64,000 nucleotides of DNA, from assembly GCF_030064125.1 (NCBI RefSeq), contig NZ_CP125957.1, positions 806,001-870,000 of the forward strand, given 5' to 3'. How positions within the stretch are numbered: position 1 is the first letter of the stretch; each line of letters starts with the position of its first letter. The stretch comes from Pseudomonas sp. G2-4 (GTDB taxonomy: Bacteria > Pseudomonadota > Gammaproteobacteria > Pseudomonadales > Pseudomonadaceae). The position numbers were made by a program, and so were the translations under genes. The notes under the pieces are model-generated. The model ran no database searches and was not told where the DNA came from. It was given only the letters and a program-made list of their open reading frames with translations. This document shows, in pieces, positions 8,076-37,575 of the stretch.

Positions 8076-8089
8076 GAAGACGAGGTGGA

Positions 8090-8153
8090 TTTCAGGCACA
8101 AAAAAAGACGTCCGTGGACGTCTTTAGATGATGAAGTGGTGGGCCGGGGTAAT
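8090..8153. repeat. Attachment-site repeat copy A (left end of island II)
   Basis: Direct repeat of 64 bp, identical to 24332–24395 and sharing its first 53 bp with 44141–44193 at the ssrA 3' end. It holds the tmRNA terminator hairpin (AAAGACGTCC/GGACGTCTTT) and a CCACCA-like end (tggtgg on the plus strand). It marks the boundary between core DNA (LysR gene) and island II. Confidence 0.93.
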
Positions 8154-8154
8154 A

Positions 8155-8838
8155 TCAAATCGTTGCGGCAACCCTAAGTGCCAACTCTGTTCGGTTTGTC
8201 ACTTCTGCCTTGCGGAACAACGTATGGATCTGATTTCGGACCGTATTTGGGCTTGAGCCTAGTTCCCGGGCGATCTGCTTGTTGCTGATTCCGCTGGCGA
8301 CTAGCTTCAGAATTTCAACCTCCCGGGTCGTAAACTGATACCAATCCAGCCCTGCGCCTATCTGCTCGAGTGGTACACAAGGTTGGAAATCGTCAGCTGC
8401 GTGAATTTGAGCTGCATGTTGAACAAGTACTGTGACCAGGCTTTTGGCAGTTTCAACGTTGTTCCAGCGCTTAGTCGAACTAACGACTGCAAAGAGAAGG
8501 TTGTTCTCGTCGAGGTGGGTGGCGTGGACGGCAAACCTTCTACCAAGGGTCGGCTCCTGTAGGAGCAAGCGGCGTCCTATACACGTGCATTTGCCGAGGT
8601 CAATCAAGGACGGCGCTCTCACTGCAGCCCATAGGGCGAGCAGCGAAGCACAGTGGCTCTGCAGCGTTTCGGGCTCTTCGTGAATTTCGCCTTCGAGAAA
8701 AAGGATTTTCTTGAAGTGAACGGCGGGGCCATTCACAGAGGCGATACCAATGGCAGTGCAGTCCACGTCCAGGTCTAGAAAGGATGGCGTTCTTATGCTT
8801 GTTTGAAGCCCTTGCCAGCTGTTCCTGTCGCTTTCCAT
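8155..8838 (-). CDS. LuxR-type transcriptional regulator (GerE HTH at C-terminus)
   Basis: A 227-residue protein whose last 60 residues form a LuxR/GerE helix-turn-helix (FTTREVEILKLVASGISNKQ…SSPNTVRNQIHTLFRKAEV). The N-terminal about 160 residues show no family I recognise; no receiver aspartate pattern is evident. I start at ATG 8838, preceded by GGGAGAG, instead of a frame 17 codons longer. It is the last gene of the leftward island II operon, 125 bp beyond the ArsM-like gene, and its stop almost touches the attachment repeat. It is the only regulator in the island (no ArsR was found) and is the natural candidate to control the arsenic/lipid genes. Confidence 0.85.
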   Translation of the reverse strand: MESDRNSWQGLQTSIRTPSFLDLDVDCTAIGIASVNGPAVHFKKILFLEGEIHEEPETLQSHCASLLALWAAVRAPSLIDLGKCTCIGRRLLLQEPTLGRRFAVHATHLDENNLLFAVVSSTKRWNNVETAKSLVTVLVQHAAQIHAADDFQPCVPLEQIGAGLDWYQFTTREVEILKLVASGISNKQIARELGSSPNTVRNQIHTLFRKAEVTNRTELALRVAATI

Positions 8839-8963
8839 ATTCGCTCTCCCTGCCCGATGTAAGCACATCAGGAGCCTGGTTTCAGACACCTGATGTGCTT
8901 TGGACTTTGATTATATGGCCAAATGGTATCCCTCGCGACAGGCGTCGGCCGATTGGTACTGGT

Positions 8964-10028
8964 CTAACAACATCCGCTTTCTATGGGGCAGCAAGCAGCT
9001 GCCTGAGCGCCTTGAAAAGGAGCCAGCCCTTTGGTCACCTTCGGGTCTCGAAGAGCAGGTGTGTTGCAATCGAAAGGCGCGGCCTGACTCAGCGGTGGCT
9101 CGTTCACGCTGCGAAGTCCGAGGAAGGCGCCTTGGTAAGGAGCACGCATCATCAAGTCATATGTCTTTGCACATACAGCGACCCGCTCACCACGACGATA
9201 CACATGTCCATCATCATCGCGCACTTCAAGCCAAGGACCGCGATAGATAACGGCCTGTCCTAACTCCCAGCACGGGCCTTGTTTACCTTTGTATGCCTTA
9301 ACGGTGCACATGCGTACTTCAGCATCGCCAATTCTGTCGATAGCGCTTGCTGCCGTTGGCGACCAATGGACGGTGATGCCATGGAAACCGGCTTGTTCGA
9401 ACGCAGCTATCACAGCCGTTTCTGACGGTAACCGAAGTGGCGCTCCGGCAGGTGCGGACCTGACGGTGTGGTGAGAGGTCAAAGGTTCATCGCCTACAAG
9501 TACTGCGCAGACCACGCAACCGGTTAGGTTCAGAGCACGAAATGCTTCCCTCAATACCTGTTTTTCATCCTCAGCATTCACGCGATTGAGGGTGAAGTCC
9601 ATCAGGATTCGACTGGCCCAACCATCAGAAACAGCGGGCGAGCGCTCAACGCCAAATCGCAGTTTCTCCTCCAGTGCGATGTAACCATCGATGTCACGAA
9701 TTAAGGCACCCTGGAGTAGTGGCTCAATAATGTTGGCATCACGCGATAAATCAGCAAGTGCCATTAGCCGCACGCAGCGAGCGTTGTCCATCATCGCTGC
9801 GCTTTTGCGTAGTTGGCGTGGGTCGCTATCAGCGATGATCAGTTCGCCGCGCATCTTGTCTACACACATAGACAGTAATTGAGAGTACGCACCTCCCCAC
9901 CAAAGGACACGAGGTGGGGAGTCAGGCTGCTCATCAGCCTCGAGAGCGCCGTTCACTATGGCGGCGGTGTGGGTCAGTTCACGTTGCCAGGGCTCCAGTC
10001 GAGAGACCGCGGTATCAAGCATGTTCAT
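8964..10028 (-). CDS. ArsM-like (arsenite methyltransferase-related) protein with Cys-rich C-terminus
   Basis: A 354-residue protein. The middle (QVLREAFRALNLTGCVV, about 157–173) matches the late strand of class I SAM methyltransferases, and the C-terminal half (MCTVKAYKGKQGPCWELGQ, DDDGHVYRRGERVAVC, about 240–286) resembles the C-terminal domain of ArsM proteins. It ends with cysteine pairs CC-PIESG-CC (346–354), like the Cys tails of several ArsM enzymes. The SAM motif I is odd: VLWWGGAYSQ instead of a D/E-x-G-x-G loop, so methyl transfer may be altered. I start at ATG 10028, which overlaps the SDR stop by 14 bp. A role in forming or methylating a C–As bond is inferred; a non-catalytic arsenic-binding role is possible. 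Confidence 0.68.
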   Translation of the reverse strand: MNMLDTAVSRLEPWQRELTHTAAIVNGALEADEQPDSPPRVLWWGGAYSQLLSMCVDKMRGELIIADSDPRQLRKSAAMMDNARCVRLMALADLSRDANIIEPLLQGALIRDIDGYIALEEKLRFGVERSPAVSDGWASRILMDFTLNRVNAEDEKQVLREAFRALNLTGCVVCAVLVGDEPLTSHHTVRSAPAGAPLRLPSETAVIAAFEQAGFHGITVHWSPTAASAIDRIGDAEVRMCTVKAYKGKQGPCWELGQAVIYRGPWLEVRDDDGHVYRRGERVAVCAKTYDLMMRAPYQGAFLGLRSVNEPPLSQAAPFDCNTPALRDPKVTKGLAPFQGAQAAACCPIESGCC

Positions 10029-11223
10029 TGGCAGAAACGTCCCAGGCATCGAGGTGGTCACGGTATTCAGTGTGAGCAGGCAGATCCGCGCCGAAGCGCT
10101 CAAGGTACCGTTGGATGGGCTGAGAGGAACGTATAAATCGGTCTTGGCAGATCTGCAGTGTGTTCAATGTCGTTTCAGTGAAGTTCAGGCCACGTTGGCT
10201 CAAAACCTTGAGCCACTGCCGGTCGAATTGCCAAGGGTAGGCACCGATTTCGAGGTTGGTCTGAGCGAACGTCAGGTAGCCTCGCTGGCGAATGTTGATG
10301 GCCTTTAGATCAACCGCTTGGAGGCTATCGTAGAAAATCACGGTCTTGGGGCGCGTGACTTTGCAGAACAGCCGCCATAGGTCTTTCATCGACGGACTGG
10401 TCTGATCGTCAACGACCAGGTTGACGTATTCACCTTCGGGCACCCAGCGAAACACGCTGGCGATGCTGGCTTGGAAAGCGTCCTGGTGCAGGAGGTTGAG
10501 CGCTTGGTCCGTAGCGACCGTATGCAGTTCGGCGTGATGGCGATCGGAGAGTAGCCTTTCGATACCCATCCATTGCTGATAGAGGCCATAGCGCTTACCG
10601 CTGTAGCGACCATCAGCAGAGCTACCAATCACGATGGATGGTCTGACGACAAGGAATGGAATGCCACATTCAGCAACTACGCGCTCAGCTGCCCGCTTGG
10701 TCAGCGTGTAGTTGGTAGGATCGCTCGGCGGCTCGTTCAGCGCCGTTTCTGGCACTACACCTCCAGAGTAGCCAGCGGAGTAGGCCGTGGAAACGAAGAT
10801 AAAAAAGCTCACTCCTGCTTGTTTGGCTGCGACAGTAAGCCTTGCAGTGAAATCGACGTTCAGAGCTTGCAGCGCCTCATTATCGAAGTAATCGAGGCAA
10901 CCTGCGCAGTGGACTACCGTGTCCACATTTCCTGAGCGAAGCATACTTTCCAGCAGCTCTACCGATGCGGTTTCAGCACCCTGCCAGTGAACAGTGGTCA
11001 CCTTTTTCTCGAATTCGTCAGCACTTCTTCCCAATGCCAGCAGTTCCCGCTGCACTTCTTCTGGAATGCCAACGTTATGGTTACCTCGCCTGGTCGGGAT
11101 GACCAAGTGATCTGCCCAGTCATCACTAAGCGCTTGAGCAGCCATGAGTGCGCCGAGGAATCCCGTGCCTCCTGTCAGGAAGACGCGTTTTCCGTGGCGT
11201 GGGGTCTGGAGAGGCGTTTTCAT
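10015..11223 (-). CDS. SDR-family NAD(P)-dependent reductase, fatty-acyl/thioester reductase-like
   Basis: A 402-residue extended SDR with nucleotide-binding GGTGFLG (18–24) and catalytic triad Ser145, Tyr172, Lys176 (NYTLTKRAAE). The overall pattern (NVDFTARLTVAAKQAG, PFLVVRPSIVIG) fits the NAD_binding_4 / male-sterility group that includes fatty acyl-CoA reductases and thioester reductase domains. It would reduce an acyl thioester to an aldehyde or alcohol in the cytoplasm. It overlaps the upstream CC-motif gene by 4 bp (ATGA) and the downstream ArsM-like gene by 14 bp, so the three are translationally coupled. A sugar epimerase role is less likely in this company but not excluded. Confidence 0.75.
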   Translation of the reverse strand: MKTPLQTPRHGKRVFLTGGTGFLGALMAAQALSDDWADHLVIPTRRGNHNVGIPEEVQRELLALGRSADEFEKKVTTVHWQGAETASVELLESMLRSGNVDTVVHCAGCLDYFDNEALQALNVDFTARLTVAAKQAGVSFFIFVSTAYSAGYSGGVVPETALNEPPSDPTNYTLTKRAAERVVAECGIPFLVVRPSIVIGSSADGRYSGKRYGLYQQWMGIERLLSDRHHAELHTVATDQALNLLHQDAFQASIASVFRWVPEGEYVNLVVDDQTSPSMKDLWRLFCKVTRPKTVIFYDSLQAVDLKAINIRQRGYLTFAQTNLEIGAYPWQFDRQWLKVLSQRGLNFTETTLNTLQICQDRFIRSSQPIQRYLERFGADLPAHTEYRDHLDAWDVSANEHA

Positions 11224-11654
11224 CGGACCTCGCCACTCGTGGGATTAAGGTTGGTTTCAGAAGCTGCAGCCAGTGCGTTATGAATCATCGTTTGGTCTGG
11301 CACTCCACCGTAGGAGATCAGCGTCTGGTCAACAATGACGATCGGGAATGCACTCAGACCATGAGTCATGAACAACTCCGTGACTTGCTGGGCTACCGCG
11401 CCTTCTTTTGCGTTCAGCTCTGCGGATAGCTTCGGAAGGATCGATTGCGCAGTAGTCACGGTAATCGTGAGTACCGGCCAGTCCAGCTTGGCCTGCGTCA
11501 AGGCGTCACGTGCTGCCGCTTCGATCTGTTCGTCAACCTGCGTAGTGCCGGGCATACAGCAACTTGCAGAGAGCACCACGATAGCTTCGGGCCCCAATGC
11601 ACGTTTGACTTGGGTGATATCTGCGTCCGAAGTCTTTTTGAAAAAATTGAGCAT
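11220..11654 (-). CDS. Small CC-motif protein, ArsD-like / thioredoxin-fold
   Basis: A 144-residue cytoplasmic protein with a vicinal cysteine pair (SASCCMPGT, Cys32–Cys33) after the first predicted strand and a late segment (GLSAFPIVIVDQTLISYGGVP) that resembles the C-terminal strand of ArsD, the As(III) metallochaperone that also uses vicinal N-terminal cysteines. There is no ArsA ATPase partner in the window, so if it is a chaperone it serves another protein, such as the permease or ArsM-like protein. Translationally coupled to the SDR gene (ATGA). A thioredoxin-like redox role is the alternative. Confidence 0.6.
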   Translation of the reverse strand: MLNFFKKTSDADITQVKRALGPEAIVVLSASCCMPGTTQVDEQIEAAARDALTQAKLDWPVLTITVTTAQSILPKLSAELNAKEGAVAQQVTELFMTHGLSAFPIVIVDQTLISYGGVPDQTMIHNALAAASETNLNPTSGEVR

Positions 11655-11678
11655 GTCTTGCCCTCTTTATTTAGATGG

Positions 11679-12608
11679 TTACAGCACGAGTGCGACAGCC
11701 AGGCCAAGGACCAGAGCGCAAACAATGACTGTTAGCGTGTGGGCTATCACCAGGGGGAGTTTGAAAAGCCTGAACAGCAGCATGATCTCGGGAGGACTTG
11801 TGCCGATTGCCGCCACCAGAAAGGTCACAAGCGGTCCGACTGGAAACCCTTTCTCGATCAGGGCAAATCCGATTGGCAGCGCTGCTATGGGCGAGATGTA
11901 CAGCGGTACGCCGACTAAGGCGCATGCCAGATACAGCCAGCCGGCCGGTAGTCGATCGACAAGGCTCATCAGTGTGTCTTTCGGTACGGCACCGTAGATC
12001 AAGCCTCCGATAAACAAGCCGATCAGCAGATACGGCGCGACCGTCCGCAACTCCTGCTTGGCCGCAAGCCAAGCGAATCGACTCGCAGGTTGCCAACCGG
12101 GCCAAGTTCGAATCCCCTGGCCCAGGAAGGCGGCACTGCTCTTGGGGGCAGGTGCTATCGTCACGTGTCTTGCCAGTCCGAGCCTTCCTGCTGCCACACC
12201 AGCAGCGGAAGTCAGTGCCAGGCCGCCGATGATGAAAACAGCGCCAGGGACAAACCCCACAGTGAGGAACAGCAGAATAAACACACCCTCGTTCACTACT
12301 GGCGAGGCCACCAGGAAAGCGAAACTGGGCACGAAGCCAACGCCTGCCCTGAGCATGCCGCTCAGCACGGGAATCGTGGAGCAGGAGCAAAAGGGCGTGA
12401 TGACGCCCCCAACACTGGCGGCAAATGCCGACCGCCAGCCCGAGGACCCAAGTAGCGAGCCTTGTGTCGCTTGAAAGGGCATGCGTTGTTGCAGCATTAC
12501 CACAAACCAGGTGACCAGCAGGAAAAGCCCAATGAGCAGGGCACCGTCCATGAGCAGAAACTCGAAGAAGGCTTGAATCCCCTGCGTTAACGTTGTGTTA
12601 TCGGACAT
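11679..12608 (-). CDS. ArsP/YraQ-family permease (DUF318), putative organoarsenical efflux
   Basis: A 309-residue polytopic membrane protein of about eight helices with the family motif TPFCSCSTIPVLSGMLRAGV in the first half and an inverted-repeat counterpart (GVPLYISPIAALPIGFALIE) in the second. Family members include ArsP, an exporter of trivalent methylarsenicals and aromatic arsenicals; others are of unknown substrate. I start at ATG 12608, preceded by GGAGC, 13 codons inside the longest frame. It lies 43 bp after the di-iron protein gene and 24 bp before the CC-motif gene. With ArsM- and ArsC-like neighbours, an arsenic substrate is the best guess. Confidence 0.78.
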   Translation of the reverse strand: MSDNTTLTQGIQAFFEFLLMDGALLIGLFLLVTWFVVMLQQRMPFQATQGSLLGSSGWRSAFAASVGGVITPFCSCSTIPVLSGMLRAGVGFVPSFAFLVASPVVNEGVFILLFLTVGFVPGAVFIIGGLALTSAAGVAAGRLGLARHVTIAPAPKSSAAFLGQGIRTWPGWQPASRFAWLAAKQELRTVAPYLLIGLFIGGLIYGAVPKDTLMSLVDRLPAGWLYLACALVGVPLYISPIAALPIGFALIEKGFPVGPLVTFLVAAIGTSPPEIMLLFRLFKLPLVIAHTLTVIVCALVLGLAVALVL

Positions 12609-12651
12609 ATGAGCTCCGCCGGTACTGATGAGAGCGGGCTGATGCAACGCG

Positions 12652-13500
12652 TCAGGCGTTGGCCAGCCCAGCGTTCATTGACGGGGTGCCGCCATAGGTT
12701 TGCATCGACTCGATCAGTGCCGCTGTGACAAGCGGATCGAAGTTCGCTTTATCGAGGGTTTCTACGTAGGTGTCCAAAGCTTCGATGCGAATTTCGTCGA
12801 TGTCGGTCTTCAGGTCACCCAGTGAAAGAGCGCCGCAGTCAATGTTCAGTCGGTCGCAGAGGAAGTGGCAGCTGGTGCTCACCATGCTGAACAGCTCAGG
12901 CATTACACGATGGTGGGCCCATTTAAGGCTTTCATGAACACCTTCCGGGTCTTTGGCGATCAGGCCACGGATACGTGCCAGGCCGATTCCCAGATGCTCC
13001 AGTTCGTCTTCCAGAATCTTTCCGGCCAGTGCTGAAGTGTCCGGATCGCCCTGGCGCTGCAGGGTTCGGTACAGCACGATGGCCATGGTTTCGGTCATCA
13101 GGTCTTGAATGATCAGGCACGCAGCCAGATCCTTGTTTTGAACAGCCGCGCTGAAGTGGCGGCGGATGTTGAACCACTGCGGCTCCACGATCTCACGCAT
13201 CACGATGTAGTCGTGGCGTTTGCCCAGGCTGGCCAGCATCAGAATGTGTTTTGATTCTTCGTAGGCTTGTTTGACGGTTTCGATCTTGCTTTCGGTATCT
13301 GGCATCAACGGCACCATTTCCGAATAGTTCTCTACCGCCATCACCTCTCCAGCGATTGCGTTTGAAGCGATGTACGCGATCAGGTTGAAATAACCGTCGC
13401 TTTTATTGTGCTCAGTGCTCAATTCTTCTCGGCGGTTTACAGCACGTAAGTCAACGGGTACGCGGTGATTGGGCTGGGTGCTGGCAGAAACTTCGTTCAT
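12652..13500 (-). CDS. Ferritin-like di-iron protein related to aldehyde-deformylating oxygenase (ADO)
   Basis: A 282-residue helical protein. All six di-iron ligands of cyanobacterial ADO have counterparts: Glu52 (AGEVMAVENYSEMVPLMPD), Glu82-x-x-His85 (EESKH), Glu137 (LMTETMAI) and Glu166-x-x-His169 (EDELEH). The segment following Glu52 and the hydrophobic stretch DLAACLIIQDLMTETMAIVLY also follow the ADO layout. ADO turns fatty aldehydes into alkanes one carbon shorter plus formate. Here it heads the leftward operon with a strong ribosome site (GGGAGG, 8-base spacer) and is co-transcribed with an acyl-reductase-like SDR, its usual biochemical partner type. The N-terminus is about 35 residues longer than in cyanobacteria. 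N-oxygenase or another di-iron oxidase activity cannot be excluded. Confidence 0.72.
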   Translation of the reverse strand: MNEVSASTQPNHRVPVDLRAVNRREELSTEHNKSDGYFNLIAYIASNAIAGEVMAVENYSEMVPLMPDTESKIETVKQAYEESKHILMLASLGKRHDYIVMREIVEPQWFNIRRHFSAAVQNKDLAACLIIQDLMTETMAIVLYRTLQRQGDPDTSALAGKILEDELEHLGIGLARIRGLIAKDPEGVHESLKWAHHRVMPELFSMVSTSCHFLCDRLNIDCGALSLGDLKTDIDEIRIEALDTYVETLDKANFDPLVTAALIESMQTYGGTPSMNAGLANA

Positions 13501-13676
13501 TTTTATATCCTCCCATTAGGCTCAAGGACATTCCCTTGCCGCGCAATTGTCGGGAGGCTGCTGGCGTACAGCCATAGTACATAGCTTCTATTCAACGTTC
13601 GGTCCGTTCCGTCTTACGATTAGTCAGATATTGACGCATCGGTCACTCGGTGTGTCCCATGGAAATCGGGGAAGAA
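13501..13676. promoter_or_regulatory. Divergent promoter region of the two island II operons
   Basis: The two operons of island II (di-iron/ArsP/SDR/ArsM-like leftward, pst/ligase/exporter/arsC rightward) start on either side of this 176-bp gap. Imperfect inverted repeats are visible (CAAGG…CCTTG near 13522–13537 and GTAC…GTAC near 13566–13580), which could be regulator sites. No ArsR-type operator is obvious. Confidence 0.5.
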
Positions 13677-14537
13677 ATGAATACAAGAACCTGGACGGCC
13701 CGGCACGTTGGTGTGCCTGTGCTGTGGATGCTGGGTGCGTTGCTTTGCCTGTCAGGCTGCAATCGTGAGACGGATCAAAAGACTGAAGCGAAGGCCGTGC
13801 GTGTCAGCGTCGTGGGGGCCAGTACCATCGCACCGTTGATAAGTGAACTGGCTAAAGCTTATGAGCGAGAGCATCCGGGCATTAGAATCGAGGTCCAGGC
13901 CGGCGGCAGTGCTCGGGGGATCATGGATGTGCGCAGCGGTACGGCTGTGCTTGGCATGGTCTCTCGTGAGCTCAAGCCTGAAGAGGGGGATCTGCAGCAT
14001 GCGCTGATTGCCAAAGATGGCATCGGCATGATCGTTCATAAAAGCAACCCGATCACTGGCCTGACAAAAGAGCAGGTTGTCGGAATCTACACAGGCCGGA
14101 TCACCCGTTGGAAAGACGTGGGGGGAGACGATTTGCCTATCACCGTCGTGAGCAAGGCAGAGGGGCGATCGACCCTGGAAATTTTCAGTGGGTTCTTTGG
14201 TATCCCCTACAAAGATATCCGCGCCCACGTGATTATTGGAGACAACCAGCAGGGTATTCAGACTGTTGCTGGCTCTCCCGCTGCAATCGGCTACGTGTCC
14301 ATCGGTTCGGCTGAGTATGAAGCCGATCAGGGCGCCGCCATTCGGTTAATCCCTTTGGGAGATCAGATTCCATCGACAGCAGCGGTTGCGTCGGGCGAGT
14401 ACGCGATCAGCCGGGACCTGAATTTGGTTTACAAAGCGCCTCTCACAGAGCCTGTCCAGGACTTCCTGGCGTTTGCCCGCTCCAATGAAGCAGCAGCCTT
14501 TGTGACTCGCATGTATTTCATTCCGGTGACGAAATGA
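13677..14537 (+). CDS. PstS-like phosphate/arsenate-binding lipoprotein
   Basis: A 286-residue periplasmic binding protein with a lipoprotein signal peptide and lipobox LSGC (Cys28). The anion-binding pattern is PstS-like: GASTIAPLISELAKAYE, GGSARGIMDVRSG and the DLPITVVSKAEGRSTLEIF segment that provides Ser/Arg contacts. I start at ATG 13677, nine codons after an in-frame GTG. It heads the rightward operon of pst-like genes. PstS proteins bind phosphate and often arsenate; with arsC at the end of the same operon, this copy may feed arsenate into the pathway or secure phosphate under arsenate stress. Confidence 0.85.
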   Translation: MNTRTWTARHVGVPVLWMLGALLCLSGCNRETDQKTEAKAVRVSVVGASTIAPLISELAKAYEREHPGIRIEVQAGGSARGIMDVRSGTAVLGMVSRELKPEEGDLQHALIAKDGIGMIVHKSNPITGLTKEQVVGIYTGRITRWKDVGGDDLPITVVSKAEGRSTLEIFSGFFGIPYKDIRAHVIIGDNQQGIQTVAGSPAAIGYVSIGSAEYEADQGAAIRLIPLGDQIPSTAAVASGEYAISRDLNLVYKAPLTEPVQDFLAFARSNEAAAFVTRMYFIPVTK

Positions 14538-14567
14538 CGGCCAGGCGCTGCTGATCAGGCTCTCTCC

Positions 14568-15464
14568 ATGACTTTATTGACAGAAGAGGTGGTCGCGAAG
14601 GCCCATCCCGCGAAGCTGCGTGGATGGGCGTTCTGGTCGGCCATGTCCATGCTCGCTCTGATAGGCGCGGCAATCGTGTTTTTGATTGTCGCTTTCTTGT
14701 TGAGTGAGGGTTTTCCACTGATCGCCCAGGGAGGGCTTGTAAGATTTTTTACGGACGAGGGGTGGTGGCCGCGGGACGCGAGCTACAACATGGCCCCAAT
14801 GGTATTGGCGAGCCTTTACTTGACCTTGGGTGCGCTTGTCATTGCAACACCACTGAGCCTGGCCATTTCGCTGGTCACGACATTCAAGGCGCCGCCGCGG
14901 CTTGCTCGCGTGCTGCGCAATCTTGTGGAGCTCAGTGCTGCAGTGCCTACCGTGGTGTATGGACTTTGGGGCGTCAGTTCGATCGTTCCGATCGTGAACA
15001 TCTGGAGCCCGCCAGGTGCGAGCTTATTGGCCGGTATCCTCATTGTTGCACTGATGATCATTCCAACGATCACGGTGTTGACCCAATCGGCCCTTCAGAC
15101 TGTTCCGACAGCTTATGTACAGGGAGCTACAGCGCTGGGCGTTTCAACCAGCCAGACATTGCTTCGTATTGTTGTTCCTGCTGCCAGGCAGGGCATTTTT
15201 TCCGCAATGGTACTCGGTGCTGCCCGAGCAATCGGCGAGACAATGGTGGTGTTGATGGTCTGTGGCAACATTGTGCAGGTACCGACTTCGCTGTTTGATC
15301 CAGTACGAGCGTTGACGGCGAACATTGCCTTGGAAATGCCCTACGCGATGGGGGATCACCGCGCTTCCCTGTTCGTAGCCGGGCTGCTGATGTTGCTCTT
15401 GGTCAGCGCGTTGGTTGCAGTGGGCGAGTGGATCGGTATGCGTCAGAGGAAGATGACTTCATGA
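14568..15464 (+). CDS. PstC-like ABC transporter permease
   Basis: A 298-residue inner-membrane permease with six predicted helices and the PstC pattern: AAVPTVVYGLWGV, VQGATALGVSTSQTLLRIVVP (EAA loop) and GAARAIGETMVVLMVCGN. Follows the PstS-like gene by 30 bp and overlaps pstA by 4 bp (ATGA). It lacks the long cytoplasmic N-terminal insert of some Pseudomonas chromosomal PstC proteins. It is the phosphate or arsenate channel half-subunit. Confidence 0.87.
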   Translation: MTLLTEEVVAKAHPAKLRGWAFWSAMSMLALIGAAIVFLIVAFLLSEGFPLIAQGGLVRFFTDEGWWPRDASYNMAPMVLASLYLTLGALVIATPLSLAISLVTTFKAPPRLARVLRNLVELSAAVPTVVYGLWGVSSIVPIVNIWSPPGASLLAGILIVALMIIPTITVLTQSALQTVPTAYVQGATALGVSTSQTLLRIVVPAARQGIFSAMVLGAARAIGETMVVLMVCGNIVQVPTSLFDPVRALTANIALEMPYAMGDHRASLFVAGLLMLLLVSALVAVGEWIGMRQRKMTS

Positions 15465-16336: not shown

Positions 16337-17191
16337 ATGATGAGCAACGATAATAGAGCCATATCGCTTGAACCGTTTGTACGAGCAACATCAAGCGTGC
16401 ATGGGGCGGTTACCCACTTGAGTACGGGCGCGCAAGGGCATATCGATATCCAAGATCTCTCCGTAAGTTATGGCAAGCGCACAGTCGTTGAGGGCGTGAC
16501 GTTGCGCGTTCCACGCAATTCAGTCACCGCACTCATCGGTCCATCAGGGTGCGGGAAGTCGAGTTTGCTGTACTGCATCAACCGCCTGAACGATCTTGTG
16601 CCCGGCTGCTCGGTAGAAGGCTCGATCAACTTCAGTTGGATGGACAATAAGCGGCTGGCAAAAAACTCGACCCAGTTGCGGCGCCAGGTTGGGATGCTGT
16701 TTCAACGTCCCAATCCATTTCCATTTTCGATTCGCAAGAACCTTGAATTCGCACTCAGGCAGCACGGCATTCAAGCGCAGGCCGATATCAATAGCCGCAT
16801 TGAGTCGTCATTACGGGAAGTGGGGTTGTGGGACGAGGTGCATGATCGACTCGACAGTTCAGCGATGGCGTTGTCGGGTGGTCAGCAACAACGACTGTGT
16901 CTCGCCAGGGCGCTGGTGTTGGATCCTGATGTTTTGCTGATGGTTGAACCATGCAGCGCCTTGGACCCGATCTCGACTCAAAAAATTGAAACGCTGATTC
17001 TTGGCCTGGCTCAACGACGAACGATCATTCTCGTGACCCATAGCTTGAGTCAGGCTCGCCGTGTAGCAGACCAGGTGGCTGTATTCTGGAAGCTTGGGGA
17101 GGTGGGCAAGTTGATTGAATGTGGCAAGGCCAGGGATGTGTTTGAGCGGCCACGCCATGAGCTGACTCAGACCTATTTGCAGTTCGCTTGA
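16337..17191 (+). CDS. PstB-like phosphate ABC transporter ATP-binding protein with altered Walker B
   Basis: A 284-residue ABC ATPase with Walker A GPSGCGKSS (68–76), the PstB-specific RRQVGMLFQRPNPFPFSI Q-loop region and signature LSGGQQQRLCLARAL. The Walker B motif reads LLMVEPCSALDP: the usual Mg-coordinating aspartate is Val203, while the catalytic Glu204 is kept. This is a single GTT codon in an otherwise well conserved gene. It may reduce ATP turnover. No phoU gene follows, unlike chromosomal pst operons. The N-terminus is about 30 residues longer than typical; starts downstream are possible. Confidence 0.85.
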   Translation: MMSNDNRAISLEPFVRATSSVHGAVTHLSTGAQGHIDIQDLSVSYGKRTVVEGVTLRVPRNSVTALIGPSGCGKSSLLYCINRLNDLVPGCSVEGSINFSWMDNKRLAKNSTQLRRQVGMLFQRPNPFPFSIRKNLEFALRQHGIQAQADINSRIESSLREVGLWDEVHDRLDSSAMALSGGQQQRLCLARALVLDPDVLLMVEPCSALDPISTQKIETLILGLAQRRTIILVTHSLSQARRVADQVAVFWKLGEVGKLIECGKARDVFERPRHELTQTYLQFA

Positions 17192-17271
17192 ATTGAGCAA
17201 CAGGCGCGTTGCAGTGCCATGGTACATCGGTTCCATTGTGGGGGGAGGGCGGCGATTTCTACTATGAACGC

Positions 17272-18837
17272 ATGAACAAATACTCTCCTGACCCCGAGCA
17301 ACACCCTACCGCGAGAGTGCAAGCGCTCTCGCTTCATGTCCACGACCTGCTCAAACATGCAGCACAGGTGCATGCAGCAGCAACGGTCACTTCTGTATCG
17401 CTGGAGGGTACGGTTGAAACTCAAACCTATGCTCAGCTGGCAAAAACTGCGCATAGCTGCGCCATGGAGCTTCACGCCATGGGGCTTCGGTCTGGAGAAG
17501 CACTTGTCAGTTTTGGTTTCAGTTCGCTCGATCAAATGGCTTGGCTTTACGCAGCACTACGCCAGGGCGTGGCCACTCATTTTCTAAACCCTCAACATCA
17601 CCCAGAAGATCTCGGGCGCTTTCTTCAGCAACTGCGACCAAGCCTGTTGCTGCATGACGCTGTGACGGGGAGCGCTGCCCAGTCATTCGCAGCGTTGGTA
17701 CCGGGTACCGCGATGCGCGAGATGGCACGGCGGGGCATCGGGAGTGGCAGCGAAAGCGTCGCCGTGGAGTTTGCGGAAAATACGGTATCCCATGTCTGCT
17801 ACTCATCGGGTACCACAGGCGTTCCGAAGGTTGTTGAGTACACGCACCGTTCAACCGTGTTGCATGCCTGGGCCTGTGCCTTGCCCGACGCAATGGGCTT
17901 GAACAGTGCCGATCGGGTTATGCCGCTCATGCAGAATTTCCACGCCAGTGCATGGGGCGCTCCTTTTGTTTGCCCGCTAGTCGGTGCGTCATTGGTGCTC
18001 GTACCACCGCATCGCGATCCTGCGCAGTGGTTTCAATGGATCGAGACGCACCGCGTTACGGTCTTGGGGGCAGTCTCTGCACATTGGCTGGCGCTCGTGC
18101 GCTACATGCGAACCAACGGATTGAGCTTCAGCACCCTGCGCCGCACGGTTGTCGGTGGTACGCGACTACCTTTTGAAGTTGCTCAGTTCATCCAGGAAAA
18201 GCTTGGCGTCGAGGTATGCCATGCCTGGGGAATGACTGAGACATCACCCTTGGCCACTATCGAGCGCTTCGATAGCAGCAAGGCCTCTCTGCGTCACGGC
18301 AAACCTGTATTTGGCATTGAATTGGCCGTGCAGTGCGAAGGGGGTTTTTGCTCGACGCAGGGGACTGGTGAGCTGATGGCCCGTGGGCATTGGGTTGCCC
18401 ACAGCACAGCAAATAGCAGTAGTTGGCTGGCAACCGGGGACTTCGCGACGCTGCACGAAAACTCGGAATTAGAGGTCATCGATCGCATGGAAGATTCGTT
18501 GATCGCCGATGGTATCCCCCTCAGTTCAGCCCTTGTGGAGCATCAGGCTCGATTGGTTCCAGGTGTTGCAGATGCAGCATTGCTGGTCACCGATGTTACT
18601 TCCGGCAGGAGCGTGCTTGCTTGGGTGGCTATGCCTGAGGTCGATTCCGATTCAGTCACTGCCGAGCTCGAACAAAACCTTTCCAAGACCTTCAACGGGT
18701 GGCGTCCGACGCAGTTCACCGTCGTGGATGCGTTTCCGTATACAGCGTCTGCAAAGGTCCAGAAACACCTTCTCAAAGATCACATCGCTCAGTTGTACAA
18801 AGGCGATGCGGCTTTGACTCCCACTTCCTCCTGCTGA
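17272..18837 (+). CDS. AMP-binding acyl-CoA/fatty-acid ligase-like enzyme
   Basis: A 521-residue member of the adenylate-forming family. The AMP-binding P-loop YSSGTTGVPK starts near residue 177, followed by AWGMTETSPLATIE (A5-like), a GDFATL hinge region and a C-terminal FPYTASAKVQKHLLKD with the catalytic lysine. This is the layout of medium/long-chain fatty acyl-CoA synthetases, which adenylate a fatty acid and load it on CoA. It sits between the pst genes and the MMPL exporter, and can supply the acyl thioester for the SDR reductase of the divergent operon. Start chosen at ATG 17272; an earlier frame exists without a good ribosome site. Chain length is not predictable. Confidence 0.85.
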   Translation: MNKYSPDPEQHPTARVQALSLHVHDLLKHAAQVHAAATVTSVSLEGTVETQTYAQLAKTAHSCAMELHAMGLRSGEALVSFGFSSLDQMAWLYAALRQGVATHFLNPQHHPEDLGRFLQQLRPSLLLHDAVTGSAAQSFAALVPGTAMREMARRGIGSGSESVAVEFAENTVSHVCYSSGTTGVPKVVEYTHRSTVLHAWACALPDAMGLNSADRVMPLMQNFHASAWGAPFVCPLVGASLVLVPPHRDPAQWFQWIETHRVTVLGAVSAHWLALVRYMRTNGLSFSTLRRTVVGGTRLPFEVAQFIQEKLGVEVCHAWGMTETSPLATIERFDSSKASLRHGKPVFGIELAVQCEGGFCSTQGTGELMARGHWVAHSTANSSSWLATGDFATLHENSELEVIDRMEDSLIADGIPLSSALVEHQARLVPGVADAALLVTDVTSGRSVLAWVAMPEVDSDSVTAELEQNLSKTFNGWRPTQFTVVDAFPYTASAKVQKHLLKDHIAQLYKGDAALTPTSSC

Positions 18838-18847
18838 TGCCTGACTT

Positions 18848-21800
18848 ATGACGCAAGTAACGAAAACTGCAGCGGTAGATTCTGTTCACGAAGCCGGCAT
18901 CAAGAGTTCATTGCCCTTGGAGCGGTATGTGACCTGGGTGGTCGATCATCGGCGTTGGGTCATTGCCCTGATACTGGCTCTATCGGCGTTCTTCGGCTTT
19001 TTTGCAGCCAAACAACAAGTGATCATCAACCCTGCCGCAGTTGTTCCGCAGAGCCATCCATACATCAAGGCGACCAACACCATCGAGAGGATCTTCGGTT
19101 CGAAGTACCTCGTGGTGATCGGTCTGACCCCAGCTCAGGGCGATGCGCTGCAACCTCAGGTGCTCGAAGCCGTGAAGCGCATCACGGACAAGCTCTATGC
19201 CGCGCCATCGGTGACCAAACAGACGCTGCTGAGTCTTTCCTCGCGGCAAGCAAAGAGTATTCGTGGGAACGCCGAAGGGTTTGAGGCCAAGCCGTTGCTC
19301 GGTGATCAGATACCGACGACCGAAGAGCAACTGAGTGCCCTGAAGTCGGCCATCGATGCAAACCCGGTTTATCGGGACACCGTAATCTCCAGCGACTGGC
19401 GAACAGCTACGATCATGCTGGAGCTCAAGGAAAATCCCAATGGTTTTGGGGCAATGCTCTCGGATGTTCATCAAATCCTGAGCCAGGAGAATACGCCAGG
19501 CGTCGAGATCTCCTTGAGTGGCAATCCGGTGTTCCTGCACCAGGCTGAGGTTTTTGCAGATCGAATCAACTGGTTATTCCCCATCGCGGTGCTGGTGATT
19601 GGCTTGCTGCACTACGAAGCCTTCCGTACCCGTCAGGGACTGATTCTTCCCTTGGTCACAGCATTGCTCTCGGTGGTCTGGGGCGTCGGTATCATGGGAT
19701 TGATGAAGGTGCCGATGGATATCTTCAACTCGCCTACGCCAATCCTGATTCTTGCCGTTGCGGCTGGTCACGCCGTTCAATTACTCAAGCGCTACTACGA
19801 ACACTTCATCGAACTGGTCAACGGGCAGCACATGGCCCCAGAAGTGGCCAACCGGCTGGCGACGATTCAATCGCTCGTGGCAGTGGGACCCGTTTTGGTG
19901 ATTGCCGGTGGTGTCGCAGCTTTGGGTTTCTTCTCGTTGGTAGTGTTCGAGCTTGAAACCGTCCGGGCCTTCGGTATTTTCACGGGCATCGGCATCCTCG
20001 CCGCGGTGCTACTGGAGTTCACGTTCACTCCGGCAGTTCGTGCCAGCCTGAAACCCCCTTCGGCGGCACAGATTGATACCGAGACCAAACCGCGAATTTG
20101 GGATCGCCTGAGTGCTCGCATTGCTCATTTGGTAATCACGCCGCGCAGTCGTAGGTGGATCCTGGCGGCCTTCGTCGTATTGATAGGTGTTGCGATTGCT
20201 GGCTGGCCCAAGGTGCATGTCGATAACTCGAGCAAGAGTTTCTTCTCTGACTCACTGCCACTGCAGCGGGACGATAACCTGCTGAACGCACAGACTGGCG
20301 GTACCAACGTTCTGTATGTAATGGTCGATACAGGGCAGGCCGATGGCGTGAAAGATCCACAGATCCTGAATGCTATCCGGGAGCTCCAGGCTGATGCCGC
20401 GAAGCGCTCGATCGTGGGTAAGACCTTGTCCATCGATGACTTTCTCCAGCGCATGCACGGCGCTGCATCTGGGGACACGGGTGCTATTAATCCACTACCT
20501 GACGATCGAAACCTGATCGCCCAGTACCTGTTCCTTTACTCGATGTCTGGCGATCCGGAAGACTTCTCGGCGCATGTCGATTATGACTACCAGCGAGCGA
20601 AGATCTCGATCATGTTGCGGACCAACAGCAACGCTGAAATTGATCGGCTGGTCAACGAGCTGCGTGAAATTGCGAACCAACGCTTCCCCAAAAATGTAAC
20701 GGTTTCGTTCGGCGGGGAGGTGGCGCAGACACTGGCAGTCACTGATGTGATGGTGCACAGCAAGCTGCTGAATATCGCACAAATACTCGGTGTTATTTTT
20801 GCGGTATCCGTTATCGCCTTCCGTTCGTTCACCGCTGGCCTACTGGTGCTGTCGCCGCTACTTGTGGTCCTTTCGCTGGTCTTCGGCGTCATGGGCTACT
20901 TCGGTGTCCCTCTGAACATTCCCAACTCGTTGATCTCCGCCATGGCGGTGGGGATTGGCGCTGACTACGCGATCTATCTCATATACCGCATTGGTGAGTA
21001 CACAGCCCAGGGCAAGGCCTTGCCTCAGGCCGTAGAAATGGCAATGAAAACCGCGGGTAAAGCCTGTCTGTTCGTTGCCACTGCTGTGGCAGGTGGCTAT
21101 GCCGTCCTCATGTTCTCCTACGACTATAAGGTTCATATGTGGCTTTCTACTTTCATCGTGCTGGCGATGCTGGCAAGCGTGTTGGCAACCCTGACCCTCA
21201 TTCCGAGCGCCATTCTGACCTTCAAACCAGCATTCATTTTCCAGCGTCGCTCGGGTGATCGTGGCGCAGTGCTGTTGATCATCCTGGCTGCTATCGGCTT
21301 CCTGACTTACTCACAGGTAGGTTGGTCGGCAGAGTTGGAGGCGAAGCAAATCATGGAGCGCAATGCTGCTGTAACTCGCTTCAGCACTTCCACGGCGGAT
21401 GCAGAGTTTGTGCTGCAGACCAAGGATGGTGGTAAGCGCGTTCGCAAGTCGAACATGGCGTCGAAACTTCAGGAAAATGGGCAAGACACCATGCGTCTGG
21501 TCCGCTTCGAAGCGCCGGCAGACATTCGCGGAACCACGACTTTGCTCGTTGAACGCTCGGCCCAGGATGACGATATGTGGGTATACCTGCCGGCGATGAA
21601 ACGTGTGCGCCGCCTGGTAGCCTCGAACAAAAAAGACAGCTTCATCGGTACTGACTTTAGTTATGGCGATGTCATGGGGCACAAGGTCGGCGACTGGAAG
21701 CACACCTTGCTCAGCCAGCAGGCACGTGACGGTGTTGAGCATTACGTCATTGAGTCGGTACCCGCTGAGGATAGCGTCCGCACTAATTCGGGGTATGCCA

Positions 21801-22060
21801 AACGCATGACTTGGGTGCGCAAGGACAATTTCGCCACGACTTACGTGGAAGCCTCGGATGCTAGTGGACAGCCTTACAAACAATTCTCCTTCGCGGACAT
21901 CCAGTTGGTTGATTCAGCGAATGGAAAGTGGCAGCCAATGAAAACCGAGGGCAAGAACCTACAGAGTGGGCATACCACTACGATTACTTTCTCCAACTTC
22001 AAGGTCGGCGAGTCGCTGAGCGACAGCCTCTTCTCCGCGAACAACATAGCTTCCAAATAA
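18848..22060 (+). CDS. MMPL/RND-type exporter fused to a LolA-like outer-membrane lipoprotein-sorting domain
   Basis: A 1070-residue inner-membrane protein. Residues 1–about 800 form an RND/MMPL transporter with two repeats, each with a periplasmic loop and helix bundles (for example PTPILILAVAAGHAVQLLKR and AVGIGADYAIYLIYR). At about 806–825 a further hydrophobic stretch (AVLLIILAAIGFLTYSQVGW) is followed by SAELEAKQ, and then a LolA-like domain to the end (DIRGTTTLLVE, DDMWVYLPAMKRVRRL, FIGTDFSYGDV). Such domains bind acyl chains and are usually separate secreted proteins encoded next to MMPL genes. The stretch looks like the signal peptide of a once separate protein. The protein probably extrudes a lipid and hands it on in the periplasm. 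Confidence 0.88.
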   Translation: MTQVTKTAAVDSVHEAGIKSSLPLERYVTWVVDHRRWVIALILALSAFFGFFAAKQQVIINPAAVVPQSHPYIKATNTIERIFGSKYLVVIGLTPAQGDALQPQVLEAVKRITDKLYAAPSVTKQTLLSLSSRQAKSIRGNAEGFEAKPLLGDQIPTTEEQLSALKSAIDANPVYRDTVISSDWRTATIMLELKENPNGFGAMLSDVHQILSQENTPGVEISLSGNPVFLHQAEVFADRINWLFPIAVLVIGLLHYEAFRTRQGLILPLVTALLSVVWGVGIMGLMKVPMDIFNSPTPILILAVAAGHAVQLLKRYYEHFIELVNGQHMAPEVANRLATIQSLVAVGPVLVIAGGVAALGFFSLVVFELETVRAFGIFTGIGILAAVLLEFTFTPAVRASLKPPSAAQIDTETKPRIWDRLSARIAHLVITPRSRRWILAAFVVLIGVAIAGWPKVHVDNSSKSFFSDSLPLQRDDNLLNAQTGGTNVLYVMVDTGQADGVKDPQILNAIRELQADAAKRSIVGKTLSIDDFLQRMHGAASGDTGAINPLPDDRNLIAQYLFLYSMSGDPEDFSAHVDYDYQRAKISIMLRTNSNAEIDRLVNELREIANQRFPKNVTVSFGGEVAQTLAVTDVMVHSKLLNIAQILGVIFAVSVIAFRSFTAGLLVLSPLLVVLSLVFGVMGYFGVPLNIPNSLISAMAVGIGADYAIYLIYRIGEYTAQGKALPQAVEMAMKTAGKACLFVATAVAGGYAVLMFSYDYKVHMWLSTFIVLAMLASVLATLTLIPSAILTFKPAFIFQRRSGDRGAVLLIILAAIGFLTYSQVGWSAELEAKQIMERNAAVTRFSTSTADAEFVLQTKDGGKRVRKSNMASKLQENGQDTMRLVRFEAPADIRGTTTLLVERSAQDDDMWVYLPAMKRVRRLVASNKKDSFIGTDFSYGDVMGHKVGDWKHTLLSQQARDGVEHYVIESVPAEDSVRTNSGYAKRMTWVRKDNFATTYVEASDASGQPYKQFSFADIQLVDSANGKWQPMKTEGKNLQSGHTTTITFSNFKVGESLSDSLFSANNIASK

Positions 22061-22069
22061 GGAGAGGAG

Positions 22070-23314
22070 ATGAGCGGGTCCTTTTTGCCCTGGTGGCGGG
22101 CCGGTGCTGTCGCGCCCCTGATTCTCTGCGCGAGTGCTTTTGCCAGCGCGCCGGAAGTGACAGGTGAGGTCGCTTCAGGCGTGTGGTCATCCAACCGCAT
22201 GTTGGATGACCAACACGCGGTGTTCTCCAATCGTGCCAAGCTCAAACTGGATTGGCAGGCGTCCGAAAGCCTGCAGTTGAACAGTGAGGTCTGGGCGCTA
22301 TCGTCTCCGGAGCGTCTGGATGAGAAGCGTGAAGACGCAGGAGTCAATGAGCTGTATGTGAAAAGCAGTGAGACGGTGTGTGCGCCTGCCCTGGGCAAAA
22401 AGCTGGTGATGTGGGGGCGTGCTGATGGGATCAATCCCACCGATCAGGTTTCACCGAGCAACTACCGAAGGTTGACCCCTGAGACGACTGATCAGCGCAC
22501 GGGAAACTGGGGACTGCACCTGGACTGTGAGGTGGGCGCGGGAAAGCTGCAGGTGCATGTATTGGATCGATTCCAATTTAATGATGTGCCGCTGGAGAAG
22601 ACACCAGGTGTGGTCTTCAGGGAGCAAGATCCAGATGTGCGCCCTACCGTTGCGGTGAAGTATGACGTGCTGGGTTCTGATGCTGATTGGTCGGTGAGTG
22701 TCATAGACGGCCATGACTTGTTTCCAACCTTTGCGGTACGAAGTGCCACGCCTGAAGGCATCACGCTCGGTCAGCACGCTACTCGCATGCGCATGATCGG
22801 TAGCGACTTCACAATAGTCCGTGGGGAAATGGCCTATAGGGGGGAAATTGCTTGGGTGGATTTTGAGCAGTCATCGAATCCTGCTGTTGCCCGTCGACAG
22901 CCCTATACCTCAGCAATTGGTGGTGCTGAGTGGTATGTCGGTGACCGCGAGACTGTTTCGTTGCAGGGCTTTTGGCGGCACTTGAGGTCAGTTTCGAGTC
23001 TGTCGAACGACCCGTTGCTTGCTCAGGTACAAGCGGCACAGGCGCTGATCAGCAATGAACTCGACCGTGACCAGTATGGGGTTACGCTCAGGTATGCCAA
23101 GCCACTGTTCGACTCAAAAGCCGACCTTGATCTCTTTGCCGTTTGGACTGAGCCCCGCAACGACTGGATGCTGCGAGGAAGACTCAAATACGCATTAACG
23201 GATTCGTGGCGGGTGAGCACCGGGTTCGACATCTTCAGGGGGCCCCAGGATTCCTTCCTGGGTCATTTGAGAACCAACTCATTAACGTTCGTTGAGGCAA
23301 GTTACAGCTGGTGA
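22070..23314 (+). CDS. Putative outer-membrane beta-barrel protein (DUF1302-like)
   Basis: A 414-residue protein with an N-terminal signal peptide (cleavage near ASAFAS–APEV) and alternating hydrophobic/polar strands throughout, ending in the aromatic residues …VEASYSW expected of a BAM-targeted barrel. The EVWALSSPER and GRADGINPTDQVSPSNYR segments resemble DUF1302/alginate-export-type proteins found beside MMPL–LolA-like pairs. It follows the fused exporter by 9 bp with GGAGAGGAG as ribosome site. It likely forms the outer-membrane part of the lipid export route; export substrate inferred. Confidence 0.75.
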   Translation: MSGSFLPWWRAGAVAPLILCASAFASAPEVTGEVASGVWSSNRMLDDQHAVFSNRAKLKLDWQASESLQLNSEVWALSSPERLDEKREDAGVNELYVKSSETVCAPALGKKLVMWGRADGINPTDQVSPSNYRRLTPETTDQRTGNWGLHLDCEVGAGKLQVHVLDRFQFNDVPLEKTPGVVFREQDPDVRPTVAVKYDVLGSDADWSVSVIDGHDLFPTFAVRSATPEGITLGQHATRMRMIGSDFTIVRGEMAYRGEIAWVDFEQSSNPAVARRQPYTSAIGGAEWYVGDRETVSLQGFWRHLRSVSSLSNDPLLAQVQAAQALISNELDRDQYGVTLRYAKPLFDSKADLDLFAVWTEPRNDWMLRGRLKYALTDSWRVSTGFDIFRGPQDSFLGHLRTNSLTFVEASYSW

Positions 23315-23565
23315 TGCAGAGGCAGCAGCGCCGTGAAGTCTGGTTTTTCACCATGCAGGCCGCTGAAGCAGGGCACAGCGCTGTGAACTCCGTCGAACTG
23401 GCTATCGCTTCTGATGCTTGGGATCGCTCCCTGCGTTCATACTCTCGAGTTTGGAAAAAGTCTTCCGCCGGGTTTTCCGCACCGGCATCGTCCTGACACT
23501 ACCCATTTGCTTGCCACCCTGGCCGCTTTGGCAATCCGCCTGAGCTTCTGAACCGGAGATACTTA
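23315..23565. other. Spacer between barrel gene and arsC, no clear gene
   Basis: The 251 bp contain only a 61-codon frame (23311–23496) with no recognisable features. It may be an mRNA spacer or decayed DNA. A ribosome site GGAGAT lies just before arsC. Confidence 0.4.
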
Positions 23566-24036
23566 ATGAAAGTCTTGTTCATGTGCACCCACAACAGCTG
23601 CCGCAGCATATTGTCTGAAGCACTGTTCAATCACCTGGCGCCCGAGGCAATGGAAGCGGTGAGCTCGGGAAGTTTTCCAAGTGGCAAGGTCAATGCTCAA
23701 GCGTTGAAGACTCTGGAAGCCGCCGGCATTTCTACCAAAGGCCTATCAAGCAAGGCTTCGGATGCATTTGAAAATGCGCCACCGGACATTGTCATTACCG
23801 TGTGCGATCGAGCAGCAGGCGAGGCGTGCCCGATCTTCTTCGGCCCTTCTCTCAAAGCCCATTGGGGCTTGGCTGACCCATCCGTCGCGACCGGTAGCGA
23901 AGCGGAGATCGAAGCTGCGTTCCAAGTGACGCTAGCCAAGATCGAGGAACGGGTCCGCGCATTCATAGCCCTGCCTGTAAGGCAAATGAGTGAGGATGAC
24001 CTCAAAGCAGCGCTCGTCAGCATCGGTAGTCTCTAA
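23566..24036 (+). CDS. arsC: Arsenate reductase ArsC (low-molecular-weight phosphatase type)
   Basis: A 156-residue ArsC of the LMW protein tyrosine phosphatase fold. The catalytic loop is C7-THNSC-R13-S, the redox cysteine pair is Cys80 and Cys88 (VCDRAAGEACP), and the general acid lies in the loop LADPSV (Asp104). The length equals that of common Pseudomonas ArsC proteins. It reduces arsenate to arsenite in the cytoplasm with thiol reductants. It is the last gene of the rightward operon in island II, 251 bp behind the barrel gene, and is the firmest evidence that this operon deals with arsenic. There is no arsB/acr3 efflux gene in the window. Confidence 0.93.
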   Translation: MKVLFMCTHNSCRSILSEALFNHLAPEAMEAVSSGSFPSGKVNAQALKTLEAAGISTKGLSSKASDAFENAPPDIVITVCDRAAGEACPIFFGPSLKAHWGLADPSVATGSEAEIEAAFQVTLAKIEERVRAFIALPVRQMSEDDLKAALVSIGSL

Positions 24037-24222: not shown

Positions 24223-24331
24223 CGTTTGGCATTCTCAAGGTTAGCGCCGGGAGGCTGGGAATACCCAAACGGCTGGGACACAACAAGCTGTTGAGGAGCC
24301 CAGTAGCGCTGAAACCCTTGATTTCACTGGG

Positions 24332-37555: not shown

Positions 37556-37575
37556 GAAATGAAGGGAGTCGCCTC

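Follow-up and report, generated by a model that had tools for sequence, protein, structure and literature searches.

The interval 8155-24036 of the window (the whole 64,000-nucleotide stretch of Pseudomonas sp. G2-4 DNA analysed here, positions 806001-870000 of a complete genome of 6.65 Mb) raises the question of why arsenic genes stand side by side with genes for fatty-acid chemistry and lipid export. The original prediction had seen in it an island for making and exporting arsenic-containing hydrocarbons, and the gene set that it named is present as open frames, most of which match the named families by profile. On balance, if only just, we think it probable from the gene content that this island is a mobile system for making an arsenic-bearing lipid and delivering it to the outer membrane or the cell exterior. 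The argument turns on a di-iron protein related to aldehyde-deformylating oxygenase (ADO), and on the genes that accompany its relatives elsewhere.

A single scan of the species-genome collection for two short peptide patterns identified 23 loci with ADO-like genes; since divergent members do not carry these patterns, the number is a minimum. Ten of these represent the island of the window (type A: L001-L008, L017, L018), and seven a second arrangement (type B: L009-L015). In the window, the open-frame list and Pfam and NCBIfam profile scans give 14 island proteins in two divergent arms:

8155..8889, minus strand: LuxR-type (GerE) regulator, with a relative at 10 of the 23 loci, and in flanking DNA at three of type B
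8964..10028, minus strand: ArsM-like protein with a degenerate S-adenosylmethionine (SAM) motif I and a vicinal-cysteine tail (..CCPIESGCC), named by structure and sequence comparison
10015..11223, minus strand: thioester-reductase / fatty-acyl-reductase type short-chain dehydrogenase/reductase (SDR; NAD_binding_4 profile match), motifs GGTGFLG and YTLTK (Y172-x3-K) intact
11220..11654, minus strand: small thioredoxin/ArsD-like protein with one CC pair (C32-C33), weak profile match; the "CC protein" below
11679..12647, minus strand: ArsP_1-family permease, a candidate organoarsenical exporter (117.8 bits, cut-off 32.3)
12652..13500, minus strand: ADO-like di-iron protein, with Ald_deCOase (PF11266) over the Pfam gathering score and an ADO-fold model
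13650..14537, plus strand: PstS-type oxyanion-binding protein (profile match)
14568..15464, plus strand: PstC permease (above the NCBIfam cut-off)
15428..16336, plus strand: PstA permease (above the NCBIfam cut-off)
16337..17191, plus strand: PstB-type ATPase (profile match)
17209..18837, plus strand: acyl-CoA/AMP ligase (AMP-binding profile match), SSGTTGVPK and AKVQK intact
18848..22060, plus strand: MMPL/HAE3 transporter with a fused C-terminal LolA-like domain (profile match)
22070..23314, plus strand: outer-membrane barrel-type protein, without a Pfam match and weakly related (26-42 bits) to proteins of type B loci
23566..24036, plus strand: ArsC, an arsenate reductase of the low-molecular-weight phosphatase type (LMWPc, 78.5 bits, cut-off 23.2)

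The ADO-like enzyme and its arsenic partners

The predicted structure of the window's ADO-like protein has the ferritin-like fold of ADO, and alignment places its di-iron ligands at E52, E82, H85, E137, E166 and H169, a set of six (E, E-x2-H, E, E-x2-H) that is kept in all 26 family sequences, the window included. An added cysteine triad (C211, C215 and C222) was found in 25 of these 26 sequences against 0 of 15 canonical ADOs, and C128 is likewise invariant across the ADO-like family. The window protein reaches 53.5 bits against TIGR04059, the NCBIfam equivalog for ADO, far under its cut-off of 222.65, and in a quick tree with one very long branch the 15 canonical ADOs form a separate clade (Shimodaira-Hasegawa-like approximate likelihood ratio test, 100). 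The genome of the cyanobacterium Adonisia holds two canonical ADOs besides its ADO-like protein, indicating that the latter belongs to a separate family. By sequence comparison, the ADO-like proteins are thus a distinct branch of the ADO fold. That the window protein might be a misread canonical ADO was also considered, and was ruled out by the NCBIfam cut-off, the cysteines and the tree.

Within this family, the window protein is 96-98% identical to several Pseudomonas-named proteins. We additionally identified two adjacent ADO-like genes in L016, L019 and probably L022; a weak second ADO-like match, in G021 (37.7 bits), has a different gene context.

For ArsC, the catalytic residues are intact as originally claimed (C7-x5-R13, reading C7THNSCR13, with C12, C80 and C88), and the protein scores 72.1 bits against the NCBIfam equivalog TIGR02691, under its cut-off of 174.3. 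Two further labels held in part. The CC protein has the CC pair for which it was called ArsD-like, but its likeness to ArsD is weak (E about 0.009, under the cut-offs). The ArsM-like protein, whose gene has its likely start at 10028 and overlaps the end of the SDR gene, gives a model (pLDDT 88.1) for which Foldseek ranks 1-13 in the PDB are all ArsM or AS3MT, with low TM-scores of 0.36-0.45. However, VIA-align of the same model places other class I methyltransferases first, no Pfam family matches at E 0.1, and the NCBIfam scores fall below the cut-offs (61.8 bits against 500 for NF040538; 24.6 against 400 for NF038099).

The hallmarks of a methyltransferase are also lost from this protein. SAM motif I (LDLGxGxG) reads LWWGGAYS in the window, and its Asp has become Trp in all 12 close sequences (the window and 11 database matches at 46-92% identity, taken as type A by similarity and not by locus). 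Six cysteine columns common to three chosen canonical relatives are kept at no position by any of these 12, nor by nine further relatives, indicating that the cysteine loss predates the island. Conversely, C252, C285, C320, C352 and C353, counted from the codon after the likely start, are kept in all 12, and the C-terminal domain and CC tail are common to ArsM relatives.

A CC pair at or near the C-terminus was found on some protein at every one of the 23 loci. In type A the ArsM-like protein carries it at all 10 loci and the ADO-like protein has none, whereas at all 13 others it is found on an ADO-like protein (near the terminus, not at it, in L016). This distribution suggests that the tail may assist the ADO-like enzyme, whether supplied in trans or carried in cis.

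Gene neighbourhoods and arsenic markers at related loci

Genomes of Pseudomonas, of Lysobacter and of burkholderial bacteria have much the same island. The pairing of ADO-like and SDR genes extends to Actinobacteria, Myxococcota and Sphingomonas, and in all spans Alpha-, Beta- and Gammaproteobacteria, Actinobacteria and Myxococcota. In 21 of the 23 loci the ADO-like gene is followed on the same strand, no more than 2 kb downstream, by the SDR gene; the exceptions are L022, a 4-kb contig, and L023. ArsP_1 (16 of 23) and the CC protein (16 of 23) are located between the two in most loci; the ArsM-like protein is present in 10. The arm of PstSCAB, ligase and MMPL genes was found in eight of the ten type A loci, L018 ending at a contig edge and L005 having no such arm in the DNA read.

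Type B loci hold the ADO-like gene, mostly followed by ArsP and the CC protein (not in L013), and then the SDR gene. Family scans of L009/L069 identified behind it an amino-acid-type binding protein, an OsmC-like protein, an FtsX/MacB-type permease, a LolA_like protein and a DUF1302-type barrel, and the other type B loci examined contain genes resembling this set. An export theme thus recurs with two unrelated pumps, MMPL-LolA with a barrel in type A and an FtsX/MacB-type ABC transporter with LolA_like and a DUF1302-type barrel in type B, and the LolA and barrel parts of the two types are related to each other; the C-terminal part of the window's MMPL fusion retrieves the LolA_like relatives of type B. 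Behind the SDR gene of L009 (13407-16998) and of other type B loci, ABC permeases accompany the amino-acid-type binding protein, together with the OsmC-like protein.

In two actinobacterial loci, L020 and L021, ArsM and the ADO-like protein are joined in a single frame, of 540 and 553 residues respectively, with the SDR gene behind it, and the fused ArsM parts exceed the NCBIfam cut-off of 263 (267.3 and 277 bits). An arsenite-methyltransferase-type protein slightly under this cut-off (247.5 bits) lies between the ADO-like and SDR genes of L013, and the Adonisia locus, L023, combines ArsM (265.9 bits), two desaturases, the ADO-like gene, a fatty-acid ligase with acyl carrier protein, and polyketide synthase (PKS) genes. 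Chance gathering of these genes was considered and ruled out by the ADO-SDR pairing, the ArsM fusion and the export theme, which recur across classes and phyla.

We scored ArsC, ArsB or ACR3, ArsH, canonical-type ArsM and AioAB as arsenic markers, and read extra flanks for 16 loci and for L020, L021 and L023; the query set used detected no further marker in the extra flanks of these last three. A marker was identified at 13 of the 23 loci (L001, L002, L006, L007, L008, L010, L012, L013, L016, L017, L020, L021 and L023), or at 17 when the ArsM-like protein is included. Within 10 kb on each side the count is eight (L006, L010, L012, L013, L016, L020, L021 and L023), plus a 32-bit ArsC end in L002. 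No clear marker was found in 20 control windows from nine of the locus genomes and the window's own, although these controls, at 20 kb each, are shorter than the extended flanks, and were searched with several queries drawn from the loci themselves and a query set without ArsB. One control contained a 126-bit AioA-like oxidoreductase, taken as generic; the loci themselves gave scores of 809 bits and, for a self-match, 1903 bits. With the fusion in two genomes, these counts bear out the claim that arsenic and acyl/ADO genes form one unit, and the coupling of the two chemistries in a conserved unit is, from gene content, well supported.

Among the markers, the arsenite oxidase genes AioBA stand in or near the ADO-like loci L006 (14496-17494, by similarity) and L016 (15730-18726, scanned).

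The ADO-like family is rare. It was found in 5 of 398 Pseudomonas genomes (counting the window's own and one with the same score), in 1 of 396 actinobacterial genomes, already known from the locus set, and in 1 of 386 cyanobacterial genomes, where 14 others with matches hold canonical ADOs. Two of 188 myxococcal-group genomes have a member, the known one and a very divergent one (G1273), near which no arsenic gene was recognised by eye. A tblastn search of 72,556 plasmid records with the ADO-like protein gave no match at E 1e-20. L104 of the myxococcal group has a very divergent ADO-like gene (10042-10776), cysteine-rich in the same region, beside a BtaA-like gene (DUF3419, a betaine-lipid synthase, by eye) and again without a recognised arsenic gene.

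Island boundaries and promoter region

The boundaries, neighbouring landmarks and candidate promoter elements are as follows:

8086..8149: left direct repeat with ssrA (tmRNA) 3'-end sequence, mostly downstream flank; left island boundary
13523..13538: inverted repeat CAAGG-N6-CCTTG in the divergent promoter region (13501-13649), a weak candidate operator
13573..13594: conserved element GAATAGAAGCTATGTACTATG, reading towards the ADO-like gene, a candidate promoter or operator compared by eye
24328..24391: right direct repeat; right island boundary
42745..44001, minus strand: phage-type integrase adjoining ssrA, recognised by eye; end of the neighbouring unit
44188..44584, minus strand: ssrA (tmRNA), with a third repeat copy at about 44137-44200

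A 47-base core ending at the tmRNA 3' end is identical at 8090, 24332 and 44141, nested in longer near-identical copies. The first two of these att-like repeats enclose the arsenic-lipid genes and no other gene that we recognised, and the interval 8155-24036 is therefore one mobile unit. We found no such repeats in eight other Pseudomonas-type sequences searched, save for one imperfect copy by the tmRNA of P. farris. In that species, whose strain SWRI79 carries L001, the island's arsenic genes run on as arsB-arsC-arsH, with the ArsC orthologue between arsB and arsH, and are followed by two genes, an integrase (by eye) and the tmRNA. It had been claimed that no classical ars operon explains the lipid genes; in relatives such as this one, however, the set is linked with just such an operon.

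The inverted repeat recurs at the same place in five related loci only (L001, L002, L008, L017 and L018), with two further copies in the window and two in 400 kb of control DNA. Its restriction to five loci and the copies elsewhere in the window make it weak evidence for an operator.

Adjacent to the island, a second mobile unit at 24.4-44.1 kb carries copper genes and the integrase next to the tmRNA (named by eye). It also holds, at 34698-42360, a run resembling a small-molecule cluster by eye, with flavin hydroxylase-like, M24 peptidase-like, cysteine-synthase-like and asparagine-synthetase-like proteins and a major facilitator superfamily exporter.

Candidate chemistry, rival explanations and known systems

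A pathway can be proposed from these parts. Arsenate would be imported by the PstSCAB-type transporter and reduced to As(III) by ArsC, which keeps its catalytic residues. The vicinal-cysteine tails may then hold As(III), on the ArsM-like partner in type A and on the ADO-like enzyme elsewhere, in line with their distribution. A fatty acid would be activated by the ligase and its thioester reduced to an aldehyde by the SDR, as their families and motifs suggest. The ADO-like enzyme, with its fold, ligands and cysteines, would strip the aldehyde carbon as formate, either from an arsenic-tipped fatty aldehyde or with the alkyl fragment being handed to bound As(III). Finally, the product would be exported through MMPL-LolA and the barrel, and stray organoarsenicals through ArsP.

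Known arsenic hydrocarbons (AsHC) are consistent with such a last step. Canonical ADO converts a Cn aldehyde to a Cn-1 alkane (PMC4286721), and AsHC304, AsHC332 and AsHC360 are reported as C15H34OAs, C17H38OAs and C19H42OAs (MH+), together with intermediate masses such as AsHC346 (PMC6611760). Less two methyls, the three formulas leave chains of C13, C15 and C17, one carbon below common fatty acids, which fits an ADO-type step but falls short of proof.

Several points weigh against an arsenic-bearing lipid. Both the product and the enzyme activities are predictions from the genes, and PstSCAB, close as it is to ars genes, might simply favour phosphate. Methylation by the type A ArsM-like protein is doubtful, because SAM motif I is lost and canonical ArsM appears absent from these genomes: at E 1e-20 none was found in the window's own genome or in nine of the ten type A genomes, several of which are metagenome-assembled. 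Canonical-type ArsM (E up to 1e-20) was present in 9 of 24 genomes, among type A only in G002. An ArsM elsewhere in the window's genome was considered as a supplier of methyl groups and ruled out, as none was found. The original claim that the island makes dimethylarsinoyl alkanes is therefore not established, the ArsM-like protein having lost both the SAM motif and the cysteines in a genome without canonical ArsM. The complementarity of the tails may also reflect a single event, because type A is one clade.

The marker counts have the same two sides. Homologues mainly in clusters free of arsenic genes, the outcome named in the original prediction as telling against it, were not what we found; however, only 13 of the 23 loci carry a marker. 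In L001, L002, L007, L008 and L017 the markers lie only beyond 10 kb, save for the ArsC end in L002; the ArsM-like protein is the sole marker in L003, L004, L005 (which also has an aquaporin-like gene) and L018; and the fetched DNA of L009, L011, L014, L015 and L019 (extra flanks read) and of L022 contained none.

A bolder form of the arsenic-lipid reading would have the ADO-like enzyme itself form the C-As bond, As(III) delivered by the tail and held by the triad (C211/C215/C222) capturing the alkyl fragment from deformylation to give odd-chain alkylarsenicals. We regard this as a tentative and rather unlikely proposal. V184 of canonical ADO is described as a channel residue pointing at substrate carbons C9-C10 (PMC5007808), and C211 falls directly after its position when the two proteins are aligned by hand, with P201 set against P175 of SeADO; a profile alignment agrees up to that helix. 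The triad thus starts next to a residue directed at C9-C10 of the substrate and not at the iron site, which would favour arsenic held at the far end of the substrate over capture at iron, within the limit that the local helix near the triad deviates in the predicted model. If the proposal were true, C-As bonds would here be formed by an enzyme that needs oxygen but no SAM, and the step still lacking on the way to arsenic hydrocarbons would be supplied.

The best surviving alternative is that the product is a common lipid or hydrocarbon devoid of arsenic, made to shield or remodel the membrane during arsenic stress, with the arsenic genes as no more than trigger and companions. Ligase, reductase and ADO follow the logic of alkane synthesis on an ADO fold, lipid exporters require no arsenic, and six relatives have no marker; we nevertheless consider this explanation unlikely. 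It does not account for a cysteine triad absent from all 15 canonical ADOs, for the frequent CC tail, for the fusion to an arsenite methyltransferase in two genomes, or for a genome with two canonical ADOs that still keeps an ADO-like gene near ArsM.

Those same cysteines suggest that arsenic reaches the enzyme and, together with the ArsM fusion and the ArsP_1 permease at 16 of 23 loci, would also suit a detoxifying oxygenase acting directly on arsenicals, by oxidising As(III) or methylarsenite or removing an organic group, the acyl genes serving another step. The constant partner of the ADO-like protein (21 of 23 loci) is, however, an SDR of the thioester-reductase type, pointing to an aldehyde, and the recurring LolA and barrel export genes would be left unexplained, so that we hold a detoxifying role to be distinctly improbable. 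That the genes merely share a mobile element without a common pathway, as the ssrA repeats and the rarity of the unit in the genus (5 of 398 genomes) might suggest, is very improbable given the ADO-SDR pairing across classes and phyla, the ArsM fusion and an export theme that persists although the pump changes.

Seaweed and fish contain arsenic hydrocarbons, for some of which strong cytotoxicity is reported, and how these compounds form is called unclear or unknown in PMC6611760 and PMC11009773. Should the arsenic-lipid reading be right, the island could help explain how organisms make arsenic-containing oils, and the conserved coupling of arsenite methyltransferases with a thioester-reductase-type enzyme and a relative of ADO would bring this origin within reach of genetics, with only four or five genes involved. 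From the added cysteines one may also expect chemistry that is new among di-iron enzymes. Even with an arsenic-free product, we would know of no earlier case in which an ADO relative underlies a response to arsenic through lipids. In searches of the open-licence literature, a body of text without preprints and with few subscription papers, we recognised no description of such a cluster.

Among known systems, the arsinothricin cluster arsQML and the arsenosugar pair ArsM-ArsS are likewise small units for arsenic biosynthesis that lie close to ars genes and include a protein of ArsM type. Unlike these, the island has no radical SAM C-As bond-forming enzyme among its 14 proteins by profile scans. 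Its own ArsM-like protein shares the C-terminal domain and CC tail with ArsM relatives, but differs in motif I (Asp to Trp) and in the six lost cysteines; by fold, the Foldseek ranks (ArsM/AS3MT first, at low TM-scores) and the VIA-align ranks (other class I methyltransferases first) disagree. The cyanobacterial alkane pathway, composed of acyl-ACP reductase and ADO, differs in that the reductase here is of another family (NAD_binding_4), and in the cysteine triad, the frequent CC tail and the surrounding arsenic genes and lipid exporters; the cyanobacterium Synechocystis is reported to be without arsenic hydrocarbons (PMC11009773). Bacterial C-As bonds are otherwise attributed, in a review, to SAM-dependent enzymes or to the bisenarsan (bsn) route of Streptomyces, where arsenic resistance genes and acyl chemistry yield a lipid-like arsenical (PMC12159101). 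Bisenarsan uses EPSP-synthase, mutase and decarboxylase homologues with a PKS, and profile scans found proteins of these kinds among 0 of the 14 of the island. MerA-type proteins end in a flexible tail with a CC pair, which is credited with passing a thiophilic element to an active site. The tails described here share that C-terminal CC pair, and by analogy may pass arsenic in a similar manner.

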